Origin: Methanosarcina sp. MSH10X1
GTDB lineage: Archaea > Halobacteriota > Methanosarcinia > Methanosarcinales > Methanosarcinaceae
Direction: 5' to 3'
DNA length: 59,249 nt
Assembly: GCF_004099695.1 (NCBI RefSeq)
Contig: NZ_SCHL01000021.1
Location: 1 to 59,249 of the forward strand
Shown here: positions 16,613 to 25,634 of the stretch, in pieces
How positions within the stretch are numbered: position 1 is the stretch's first letter
Layout of the letters: each line of letters opens with the position of its first letter
The notes under the pieces: generated by a model
What the model saw: only the letters and a program-made list of their open reading frames with translations
Told to the model about the DNA's origin: nothing
The model's database searches: none
Position numbers and translations under genes: made by a program

Positions 16613-17665
16613 TTACCAGGCAGTTCTCTTGAAAGACTCAACCTGCCTGTAAATTTCTTCGGCTTCCGCGTACTGCCCTTTTTCTTTTAGCAAATCAGCG
16701 TACCCCCGCAGGGTTCCGAAATGCCCGGGATCAAGCTCAAGCGCTTTTTTGTACTGGACTTCAGCCTCGTGCCTGTGCCCGAACCTGGCAAGCAGCCTGG
16801 CATATTCACAGTGAGCTTCGACGTCTTCAGGGCTCAGTTTAAGGGCACACCTGAAATGTACCCTTGCCCCATGAATGAACCCATGCTCTGCAAGCAGACG
16901 GGCATAGAAAAGATGCGGACGAGGGTCATCAGGATCGGCTTTGAGGGCTATTATGTAATGTTTTTCGGCATCGAGGGGTTCACCTTTTTCTTCAAGAAGG
17001 CGAGCATAGCGGAAATTGGATTCCACATGGTCAGGCTCAAGCTTAAGAGCCTGAGTATAATGGTAACTTGCCTCTGTTCTTTCCCCGCGTCTGGAAAACA
17101 GTATCCCGTACCCGCAGTGAGCGTTTACGTTCTCCGGGTCAAGAAGCAGGGCTCGGCTATACATTTCTTCGGCTTCGTCCATCTTGCTGAGCCTGTAGAG
17201 CAGGCAGCCGTAATTGCAAAGCGTTTCTACATGAAAAGGATTGAGTTCCAGAACTTTTTCGTACTGAACTCGTGCAGTTTCAGTTTCTCCCTTTCTCGCC
17301 AGAACTGCCCCGTATCCGCAAAGAGCTTCGGTATTTTCAGCATTCTCCCTGAGCACTTCTTTGAATTCTCGTACAGCAAGTTCGTCAAATCCAATCAAAA
17401 AAGCCGTTTTTCCCGCTTCCATAAGCGTGTCTTTCCGGACTCTTCCTGAGGATAGCGACGCACAGGCTCTGGAAATTACATATTTCTCCCTGTGCATCGA
17501 ATCTTTACCAAAAATAGATGAAAGTTTTAGCAGGGTTTCCTGAGAAAGCGCATGCTCAGTTGAGAAGGAAACGACAAACTCAATGATCTTGTCAAGGTCA
17601 CAGCTATCGGCTTCAACTTCTTCGATTACACGAAAAACCAGCCTGTCTACAGCATCAATCTCCAT
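16613..17665 (-). CDS. TPR protein, paralogue A
   Basis: A 350-residue soluble protein. Residues 1-85 form a helical, non-TPR N-terminal domain. About eight tetratricopeptide repeats follow from residue 90 to 345, each with the usual pattern (for example YGAVLARKGETETARVQYEK, then VLELNPFH). TPRs mediate protein binding; no enzymatic part is present. A paralogue with a similar N-terminal domain is encoded at 19785-20974. Between the two are a coiled-coil protein and a PPP phosphatase. The ATG at 17665 has CAGGAGGTTTTAGGC directly upstream, a strong ribosome binding site. Confidence 0.9.
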   Translation of the reverse strand: MEIDAVDRLVFRVIEEVEADSCDLDKIIEFVVSFSTEHALSQETLLKLSSIFGKDSMHREKYVISRACASLSSGRVRKDTLMEAGKTAFLIGFDELAVREFKEVLRENAENTEALCGYGAVLARKGETETARVQYEKVLELNPFHVETLCNYGCLLYRLSKMDEAEEMYSRALLLDPENVNAHCGYGILFSRRGERTEASYHYTQALKLEPDHVESNFRYARLLEEKGEPLDAEKHYIIALKADPDDPRPHLFYARLLAEHGFIHGARVHFRCALKLSPEDVEAHCEYARLLARFGHRHEAEVQYKKALELDPGHFGTLRGYADLLKEKGQYAEAEEIYRQVESFKRTAW

Positions 17666-19784: not shown

Positions 19785-20974
19785 TTAGTCCAGAATAATC
19801 CAGGTTTCTGTCATCTTGCTTCCTATGTCAGGATCGAGCTGCATAGCCTTCATGTATTCCTTTTTGGCTTCGTCAAAGCGCCCCATCTTTCTCATAAGAA
19901 GGCCGTAACTGTATAGTGAAGGGGAGGATAATACGGGTTCAGGGCGAGAGCCTTATTATATTCATCCTCGGCTTCGTCAAAACGCCCGGTTTCCGAAAGA
20001 AGATTTCCGTAGCTATAGTGTCCTTCAGCACTTTCAGGATCCAGGCTGAGCGCTTTCTTATATTCCATCTCAGCCTCGTACCGTCTTCCAAAGCGGGCAA
20101 GGAGATTTGCATAATTGGAATGGACTTTTGCGTCGTTCTGGTCAAGGGCAAGAGCTTCCAGGTACTGTGCTTCGGCTTCTGAGACCCTGCCTTCTCTTGC
20201 AAGGAGGTTTCCATAGTTAAAAAGAGTCCGTCTGTGCCTGGGATTTAGAGAGAGAGCTTCTCTATACTCGATCTCGGCTTCTGAGAAACGTCCCAGGAAA
20301 GAAAGCAGGACTCCGCAGTTGTGGCGAAGGCTTGGGTCTTCAGGGTCCAGCTTTATTGCAAGCCTGTACTCCTTCTCAGCATCCCTTAGCCTTCCCAGCT
20401 CAAAGAGCAGGTTTGCGTACCCCCCTCGCGCAGGGACGTAGTCAGGGTCGACCATAAGCGCCCTTGAGTAGTACTCTTCGGCTTCCCTTACATACCCGTA
20501 CTCGGTCAGGATGTAGGCGTACCCTGCATTTGCTTTTACATGCTCTGGTGAGGTTTCAAGCACCATTTTATATTCCTTCTCAGCATCCTCAGTCTTTCCA
20601 AGTTCCAGAAGAAGTTCGGCATAGGCACATCTTGCATCTCCGTTCTCTGGACTTTCTTTTAGAACCTCCAGATAACTTGCCTCCGCTTCAGGGAAAAAGC
20701 CCAGAAGATGCGCTGCAGTACCCAGTGCAAAGCAGGCATCCTCACGTAGTTTTCCGGAAGCCCTTATATAACAGGCTTCTGCAAAAACATATTCTTCCAT
20801 AACCATTTTCTGCTGCCTGCAGGCATTGGAAAGATCAAGCAAAGTATTGGGGGAAAAAGATTTTTTTTCAGCAAGCTCCAGGGCAAAATCAACTGCAGAA
20901 GACAGATTTTTCTGATCGGATCCGATTATTCCAATAACATCATATATAAAGTCATCAATTGCATCGAAGTCCAT
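19785..20974 (-). CDS. TPR protein, paralogue B (3' end frameshifted)
   Basis: The uninterrupted frame covers 19892-20974 (360 residues): a helical N-terminal domain similar to paralogue A, then TPR units from about residue 90 (for example YANLLARFGRRYEAEMEYKK). The frame ends abruptly in a non-TPR tail (HYTVTAFL). One frame over, the sequence from about 19920 to a TAA at 19785 encodes a normal TPR continuation: YSYGLLMRKMGRFDEAKKEY, then MKAMQLDPDIGSKM. A single base lost in the C-run (GGGG on the plus strand, about 19920-19923) explains this. Either the gene is truncated by one repeat in this strain or the assembly has an indel. The start ATG at 20974 has GAGGTG upstream. Confidence 0.85.
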
Positions 20975-23935: not shown

Positions 23936-24214
23936 TCAATACGGGTCTGAACGGTCTTCGGGTAACGAACCATTGTCACTCACATCCTTCACCCGTTCTT
24001 TTTCTATTTTTTCAGCATCGGCAAGAATCTCTATCTGGTATCCCTTTCCCGATAGGTAATCAATCAGCTCGTCCGGGAGTACTCCCTGGATTTCAAATAA
24101 GCCGTCAGCAAGTTGCTTTGCCGTCTGCCCGAATACATCAAGGTCATACAGGCGCTGGAGGTCACGCAACCGATCCCATGTATCGGTATGAATTCTTACA
24201 ATATAATGGCCCAC
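23936..24214 (-). CDS. Free-standing prodomain-like protein, paralogue of the M14 carboxypeptidase N-terminus
   Basis: A 92-residue protein aligning over its first 80 residues with residues 1-79 of the neighbouring carboxypeptidase: both begin M-x-x-Y-x-VRI, share KLR/RLRDL, the segment AA(R)KLA-D-x-F/L-x-x-x-GVL, a GY(Q/T) turn and end with ERV(K/Q)(D/E)VS. It has no peptidase domain and ends with an acidic tail. In other peptidases, prodomain-like proteins can act as inhibitors or folding helpers; such a role is my inference. It is encoded 61 bases downstream of the peptidase gene on the same strand, so probably co-expressed. The start is GTG at 24214. Confidence 0.75.
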   Translation of the reverse strand: MGHYIVRIHTDTWDRLRDLQRLYDLDVFGQTAKQLADGLFEIQGVLPDELIDYLSGKGYQIEILADAEKIEKERVKDVSDNGSLPEDRSDPY

Positions 24215-24275
24215 GTGAATCAGTCCTTCCCCCGGGGATGTCTATTCCTGGAATAAATCCCTATAATATCGTTGC

Positions 24276-25634
24276 TTACTGCCCGGCTGCAGCCAGGCAA
24301 AGTTCACTCATGGCAGCACAAACATCCTGGATGATATGGCTCATTTCACTTAAGGGTGGAACGAATTCCTCCCCGAACTCGATGGTATAAGCATGGACCT
24401 TCCTGTTAAGCCCGTTTACGATATGGCGGCTGAAGGCATAGTCATCTGATGTCGCTGATGTTGGATAGAGCCCGACAGACTGTTGAATTGTGTATCTTTT
24501 GCCGCGTACAGCCTCCAGTGCGCTGTTCATACGATTAGCGAGATTTATAATCATATCCTTATCCTGCGCGGATATAAACTCTCCATAAAGCGTATCGTTC
24601 AGATTCCCGCGTTTTCCGTTATATACAGGATTCGAAAAGTTCTGTCCGGGATCGGTAGTCTGGTTATTATCATCTCCCCAGTTATGCAGTATAAGCCCCC
24701 CGTAACTGTGCACATCCACGTAATAACCGATATTCGGAAAGGTGTCGAAGAGATGGCGTACATTACTGGATTCAGGCTCGGAAAATGCACTTTGCCCCTT
24801 ATACGTGAAACTGGATGGACTGGAAGAGGTTCCAATCCCACTGTCCCACAGGAAATCAAAATTCCGGTTTAAATCCACACCCTGAGAGGAAGCCCCTGCA
24901 GCAGTGTTCGGGTTGCGGTTCTTACGCCACCAGAAATGCTGAGGATCGCCAGAATTTGGATTATAGGTCTGGCTGTAGTGCTTGCCATCCGGATTCACAT
25001 CAGGGAAAACAAAAATATCAAGGTTTTCAAGAATTGCACGGACCTGAGTTACAGGGAAACTCTTCCCTCCGTAGGTTAGCTCGCTGCCGGCACTATAAGC
25101 ATTGATGAGATTGACGAGGAAGTTTACGCAAATATCCGAACCACCCCATTCCCGCGCATGCATACTGCCCGTGAAAAGTACACCGGTTCTGCCCGTATTC
25201 GTTCCGACACGTACTCGGACAGCATGGGATATCCTGTTCTCCCAGGTGCGGTTCGGGAGTTTGATAAGAGTTACGAGATCGGGGTGCAGAGCCTTGAGGT
25301 TAATAAGCGCGGACTCTACCTCGTCTGCGGTCATATAGCCCATTACTGCACGCTTTTCAAATCCCGAGAGCCCTGCAACTTCAGCGAAGCGGTTGATGTG
25401 CGAAACTTCCTGCACACGTTCTTCAGCTACCCTGGACAGATCGGAAACAGACTCGACGGTGTAACCCGCCGCCCCAACCTGCCGAATCTCTTCCTCCGTT
25501 AAAACACCCGGAACCATAAAGCGGTCAGCAGCCAGTTTTCGTGCAGCACGATACTTTAAATCAAGCTCGAATTTATCAAGCTCCCTCAATTTTTCAGGAG
25601 TTTTAGCGGTTATTCGGACTGAATAGATTGCCAT
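24276..25634 (-). CDS. M14 family zinc carboxypeptidase
   Basis: A 452-residue metallocarboxypeptidase. Residues 1-80 are a small prodomain-like region. The catalytic domain has the zinc ligands His159 and Glu162 in SMHAREWGG, the substrate-binding GVDLNRNFDF, the third zinc ligand His in DVHSYGG and the catalytic Glu in YTIEFGEEF. It removes C-terminal residues from peptides or cleaves related amide bonds. No signal peptide is seen, so it is cytoplasmic or exported by another route. The ATG at 25634 has GGGGGTATT upstream. A paralogue of its N-terminal domain is encoded next. Confidence 0.92.
   Translation of the reverse strand: MAIYSVRITAKTPEKLRELDKFELDLKYRAARKLAADRFMVPGVLTEEEIRQVGAAGYTVESVSDLSRVAEERVQEVSHINRFAEVAGLSGFEKRAVMGYMTADEVESALINLKALHPDLVTLIKLPNRTWENRISHAVRVRVGTNTGRTGVLFTGSMHAREWGGSDICVNFLVNLINAYSAGSELTYGGKSFPVTQVRAILENLDIFVFPDVNPDGKHYSQTYNPNSGDPQHFWWRKNRNPNTAAGASSQGVDLNRNFDFLWDSGIGTSSSPSSFTYKGQSAFSEPESSNVRHLFDTFPNIGYYVDVHSYGGLILHNWGDDNNQTTDPGQNFSNPVYNGKRGNLNDTLYGEFISAQDKDMIINLANRMNSALEAVRGKRYTIQQSVGLYPTSATSDDYAFSRHIVNGLNRKVHAYTIEFGEEFVPPLSEMSHIIQDVCAAMSELCLAAAGQ

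Follow-up and report, generated by a model that had tools for sequence, protein, structure and literature searches.

Organization of the locus

The window analyzed here, a 59,249-nucleotide stretch of the genome of Methanosarcina sp. MSH10X1, contains a gene for an M14 peptidase and, 61 bases downstream on the same strand, a gene for a protein of 92 residues. The features of this locus are collected in Table 1.

Table 1. Features of the peptidase locus (positions within the window)
Feature	Position	Strand	Basis
Free prodomain-like protein, 92 aa, GTG start	23936..24214	(-)	ORF, genome search, orthologues, Foldseek
Spacer of 61 bases separating the peptidase stop codon from the small gene, with a GGAAGGA ribosome-binding-like stretch	24215..24275	(-)	sequence and orthologue comparison
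M14 (carboxypeptidase A/B type) peptidase, 452 aa, ATG start, without export signal	24276..25634	(-)	PF00246
Prodomain-like N-terminal domain of the peptidase, residues 1-80	25395..25634	(-)	homology to small protein, Paraburkholderia N-domains, and free Streptomyces protein
Linker with NRFA motif, residues 81-98	25341..25394	(-)	sequence alignment
M14 catalytic domain, residues 99-452	24279..25340	(-)	PF00246 at 24318-25316; catalytic motifs invariant in 9 relatives
GGGGG ribosome-binding-like run, 8 bases 5′ of peptidase start codon	25643..25647	(-)	orthologues

A sequence-only reading of this region had claimed that the small protein resembles the peptidase N-terminus over about 80 residues and lacks a catalytic part, and both observations were borne out. 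When all six frames of the 3.56 Mb genome were searched, residues 2-80 of the small protein matched the N-terminus of the peptidase with 36% identity over 79 residues (E 1.2e-9), and the only other match in the genome had an E value of 0.26. The local alignment score of the two proteins is 126, compared with a maximum of 59 among 2000 shuffles of the small protein. All three motifs, the YxVRI start, the internal GVL motif, and the ERV(K/Q)(D/E)VS end, are present in the alignment. By Pfam search, no catalytic part was found in the small protein, and PF00246 accounts for the remainder of the peptidase. Judged by sequence, the small protein and the N-terminal domain of the peptidase are paralogues that have diverged from each other. 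The linker with the NRFA motif is common to the peptidase and to the free bacterial subunits described below, and it is missing from the archaeal free copy.

The small gene is directly followed by an LrgA/LrgB membrane gene pair (PF03788 and PF04172; 22552-23750). This pair is also found at the same place in genome G013, and the equivalent stretches of G006 and G028 gave no match to it. Elsewhere in the window, positions 16613-17665 and 19892-20974 encode two paralogous proteins that are about 36-38% identical, as seen from cross-matches.

Catalytic residues, predicted specificity, and probable location of the peptidase

PF00246 covers residues 107-439 of the peptidase (E 1.7e-56; 192 bits versus a cut-off of 21.6), which makes the enzyme a member of peptidase family M14. 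Residues H159, E162, H309, E419, N256-R257, and Y390 are invariant in all nine aligned relatives. We take them to be the zinc ligands (HxxE...H, that is HARE plus a second His), the catalytic Glu, and the substrate-binding Asn-Arg and Tyr. They can be aligned with solved carboxypeptidases where the profile alignment reaches, with E419 lying outside it. D397 is aligned opposite an Ile of CPA4 and presumably corresponds to position 255 in carboxypeptidase A numbering. In M14 enzymes, an Asp at this position indicates a carboxypeptidase B-like preference for C-terminal Lys or Arg. The peptidase carries this Asp and is predicted to have such a specificity.

Neither protein contains a hydrophobic stretch suitable as signal peptide or membrane segment in the six archaeal orthologues of each: the best 19-residue hydropathy starting within the first 25 residues is at most 0.23 for the small proteins and at most 0.71 for the peptidases. 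Because such an export or membrane stretch is absent from both, the pair is probably cytosolic.

At the start position of the peptidase, two of the six orthologues have ACG and two have ATA (L018, L019, L021, and L022; genomes G006, G028, G005, and G026). The conserved protein sequence reaches up to this codon, and a G-rich run is found at a similar place about 8 bases 5′ of it in all six orthologues. The small genes, unlike these peptidase orthologues, start with GTG or ATG. Weak start codons may possibly be in use for the peptidase orthologues; they would be compatible with a need for restraint of the enzyme but prove nothing in this respect.

Co-occurrence of the two genes in Methanosarcina

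We examined the distribution of both genes in 30 Methanosarcina genomes, 23 of which have a completeness of 90% or more and a contamination of 5% or less. Six genomes contain the peptidase, and the same six harbor an intact small gene, in every case directly downstream of the peptidase gene with a gap of 57-340 bases. No intact copy of either gene was found in the remaining 24 genomes. On a tree of the TruD gene from all 30 genomes (a single-gene tree with two partial rows), the presence of the pair changes at least four times, both genes together each time, which argues that the association does not reflect one inherited block. Several losses after a single old gain would also yield this pattern, and the joint presence and absence could partly result from co-transfer of neighboring genes.

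The surroundings of the pair fall into three contexts: a gene for an aminotransferase (PF00266; NifS-like by eye) in G000, G006, and G028 as well as at the relic site of G013, in G001 and G026 a gene judged by eye to be acetyl-CoA-synthetase-like, and a different location in G005. Given these differing surroundings and the number of changes on the TruD tree, it is unlikely that the two genes stay together merely by common descent of one locus. At the syntenic site in G013, between the aminotransferase gene and lrgA, the peptidase gene is missing and a frame change disrupts the small gene (L056:8705-8973). In G014, a disrupted frame holds a fragment of 28 residues that is similar to the small protein (E 2.2e-4; L057:7889-7969). 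The sequence-only reading had regarded small genes in genomes without any M14 peptidase as evidence against a functional pair; among the 30 genomes of the genus, only this one broken copy and this one short fragment were found.

The family sample (111 genomes) yielded only one borderline match outside Methanosarcina (26 positions, E 0.009, in G098), and the phylum sample (392 genomes) yielded none. Six distant M14 enzymes were also found outside the genus, but none of them aligns before profile position 96, and they thus lack the N-terminal domain. In a search of genome contigs, the single small protein gave no match and the alignment gave one, L042, which is the same 3282-base contig that carries the pair in G026. 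Viral contigs contained no match to the small protein, the peptidase, or the peptidase alignment.

Orthologous small proteins are 61-75% identical. For residues 1-76, dN/dS could be computed for 13 pairs: it falls within 0.07-0.18 in 12 of them and reaches 0.43 in the closest pair. Two further pairs were saturated and left out. Over all 15 pairs, the corresponding values are 0.11-0.22 for the domain encoded in cis and 0.06-0.21 for the catalytic domain. A tree of the domains including five bacterial ones, which is based on a short alignment and has long branches, separates cis domains (support 99/97) and free copies (only 68/89) into different groups. This topology would fit a single duplication that preceded the divergence of the present Methanosarcina copies.

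Fused and split forms in bacteria

The nearest relatives of the peptidase found outside the genus are encoded on Paraburkholderia plasmids (nine records; 39-42% identity across 99% of the length) in a bacterial survey covering plasmid records only. The N-terminal domain is also present in the three Paraburkholderia peptidases examined. When it was used as query, it matched nine places in the nine records, all of them peptidase N-termini, so that no free copy was found on these plasmids. The small protein itself had no match at E≤1 in the plasmid records (tblastn).

Two further records show the domain as a separate product. In Streptomyces sp. BHT-5-2, the N-domain is encoded by an ORF located 1 base before a catalytic-only M14 ORF, and in Caballeronia insecticola a separate N-domain ORF lies just upstream of such an ORF and overlaps it. 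In both records, the catalytic ORF opens where the linker ends in other relatives. The free Streptomyces protein is linked to the archaeal family with an hhalign probability of 93.5%. The Caballeronia protein matches the Streptomyces one (E 6e-12) but reaches a probability of only 3.9% against the archaeal profile; it would belong to the family transitively only. Either record taken singly could be a frameshift error. For both this is unlikely, since they come from two phyla, share the same MSYLN opening point, and have a common NRF-DP... tail in the free products. As far as these sequences indicate, some bacteria produce the domain separately from the catalytic part, others produce it as a fusion, and Methanosarcina has a fused as well as a free version.

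At its C-terminal end, the catalytic-only ORF of C. insecticola also encodes a von Willebrand A domain (L050:4013-6904). An annotated trypsin-like protease gene is located directly upstream of the M14 gene in Paraburkholderia largidicola (L049:2579-3895), and in one Methanosarcina genome a trypsin-like protease gene, with a weak Pfam match just below the cut-off, lies near the M14 gene (L053:10635-11114). Such a trypsin-like neighbor could possibly be an activating protease.

Predicted fold of the small protein

The AlphaFold2 model of the small protein, calculated from four alignment rows, is of moderate quality (pLDDT 71.8, pTM 0.52) and shows a ferredoxin-like arrangement of strand-helix-helix-strand-helix-strand-helix. 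A Foldseek search with this model against 350,542 PDB chains ranked the prosegment of an animal procarboxypeptidase A first (1pyt_A; E 0.057, probability 1.00, TM 0.58) and another one second (1pca; E 0.12), both as weak matches, and 12 of the 50 matches listed were procarboxypeptidases. With VIA-align, prosegments reached Z values of 5.5-6.3 (1aye, 6.3; 1pyt, 6.0), level with unrelated proteins of ferredoxin-like fold, among them HisG (6.8) and SBDS (6.4); values of this size can reflect a common arrangement only. The model of the full-length peptidase, based on two alignment rows, has a mean pLDDT of 37.

The Pfam model for the M14 prosegment, which we take to be Propep_M14 (PF02244), matched none of the 16 domain sequences and not the whole peptidase at E≤10, and a 16-row domain profile found no prosegments among the PDB sequences. 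The full-length profile, in turn, aligns in register across the border between prosegment and enzyme in 2boa, 5om9, and 1pca. Since the register provides a link to the prosegments and sequence profiles do not, we term the domain prodomain-like and do not assign it to the Pfam family. A kinship with the animal prosegments is suggested by predicted fold and position alone.

A putative inhibitor acting in trans

Based on these observations, we favor, at somewhat better than even confidence, a cytosolic procarboxypeptidase accompanied by a second, free prodomain that would serve as its dedicated inhibitor. The peptidase would carry one N-terminal prodomain in cis, like the pancreatic procarboxypeptidases, and the small gene would encode a second one that arose by duplication and has neither linker nor catalytic part. 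This free prodomain would bind across the active-site face of the catalytic domain, hold the enzyme inactive in the cell, and possibly aid its folding. Physical binding, inhibition, and a trigger for release are what we infer. Binding in trans is the simplest reading of the paralogy, the joint inheritance, the decay without the enzyme, the separate bacterial domains, and the prosegment-like predicted fold. The earlier idea of a prodomain-like domain forming a functional pair with the peptidase is supported by the predicted fold, the co-occurrence, the repeated joint gain or loss, the decay in G013, and the split bacterial genes. Against an inhibitor speak the cis domain, next to which a second copy may look redundant, and the structural evidence, with a moderate model, Foldseek E values of at least 0.057, prosegments tied with unrelated folds, and no link by sequence profiles.

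Some of the same data would also suit a free domain that acts chiefly as a foldase, helping the catalytic domain to fold or stay soluble in trans like the propeptides of subtilases, with inhibition as a side effect or absent. The split bacterial enzymes lack a cis domain and could need the separate adjacent one for folding, and its position just before the enzyme gene suits co-translational chaperoning. In Methanosarcina, however, the cis domain is already there and the free domain is encoded after the enzyme. Moreover, inhibition is the best-known role of procarboxypeptidase prosegments, and we regard a foldase as rather unlikely. The same low probability is assigned to a general binding or oligomerization module, which would contact substrate, ligand, or another subunit in both the enzyme and its partner and would make the free copy an adaptor or structural subunit instead of an inhibitor. 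Ferredoxin-like folds commonly bind ligands or dimerize, the regulatory domain of HisG equals the prosegments in VIA-align score, and the bacterial enzymes with split genes could consist of two permanently joined subunits. Yet the blind Foldseek search puts M14 prosegments first, the domain occupies the prosegment position before an M14 catalytic domain, and the genus, family, and phylum samples contained no genome with an intact small gene but no enzyme.

As a partial paralogue adjoining its source, the small gene could finally be a non-functional by-product of duplication. This is very unlikely because the gene is under purifying selection, as judged from the orthologue identities and the dN/dS values given above, including the higher one of the closest pair; it is also kept in each of the six genomes that have the peptidase, in several different surroundings.

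Comparison with known propeptide-like inhibitors

If the free copy acts as an inhibitor, the pair points to an activity inside methanogen cells that trims C-termini and needs restraint. More tentatively, and with somewhat less than even confidence, the findings could be generalized to cytosolic M14 carboxypeptidases of bacteria and archaea that form a class controlled by a prodomain in trans. This prodomain would be an obligate separate subunit in some bacteria and, in Methanosarcina, a second lock over the cis domain, much as in an enzyme-antidote pair. This would be the first family of metallocarboxypeptidase inhibitors derived from a propeptide. In the open-licence literature, we found no free propeptide-mimic inhibitors of M14 metallocarboxypeptidases and none in archaea.

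The Methanosarcina peptidase resembles the animal procarboxypeptidases A/B (M14A zymogens; PDB 1pyt, 1aye, 1nsa) in having an N-terminal domain of about 80-95 residues, predicted to be ferredoxin-like, before the M14 catalytic domain. It differs from them in that sequence similarity of the prodomains is undetectable, an export signal is lacking in the pair, and an extra free copy of the domain is present. With regard to this free copy, the closest parallel in organization is SUB1-ProM of Plasmodium, which PMC6993865 describes as a stand-alone propeptide-like protein encoded beside subtilase genes that inhibits SUB1. Both are small, lack a catalytic part, and lie next to protease genes. The target of SUB1-ProM is a secreted serine protease of another clan, and its inhibition was measured, whereas we infer it for Methanosarcina.

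Stand-alone inhibitors of MEROPS family I9 include POIA1 and the yeast proteinase B inhibitor (PMC6993865). Like the model of the small protein, they have a free propeptide-like fold of similar size (POIA1, 1v5i_B, VIA-align Z 5.8), but they target subtilases and not an M14 metallopeptidase, and no sequence similarity was seen. In family I29, CTLA-2 alpha, crammer, and BCPI are stand-alone propeptide-like inhibitors of cathepsins (PMC4089206). Here, the likeness lies in the principle of a free propeptide-like protease inhibitor, and the targets are cysteine proteases. As a free homologue of an N-domain without catalytic part, the small protein follows the stand-alone propeptide-like principle of I9 and I29, provided that the N-domain is a propeptide, as its predicted fold and position suggest. 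The occurrence of fused, split, and fused-plus-free forms within one enzyme family offers a ready system for the transition from a cis prodomain to a trans inhibitor. Known free propeptide-mimic inhibitors act on serine and cysteine proteases, and the M14 case would add metallocarboxypeptidases to their targets.
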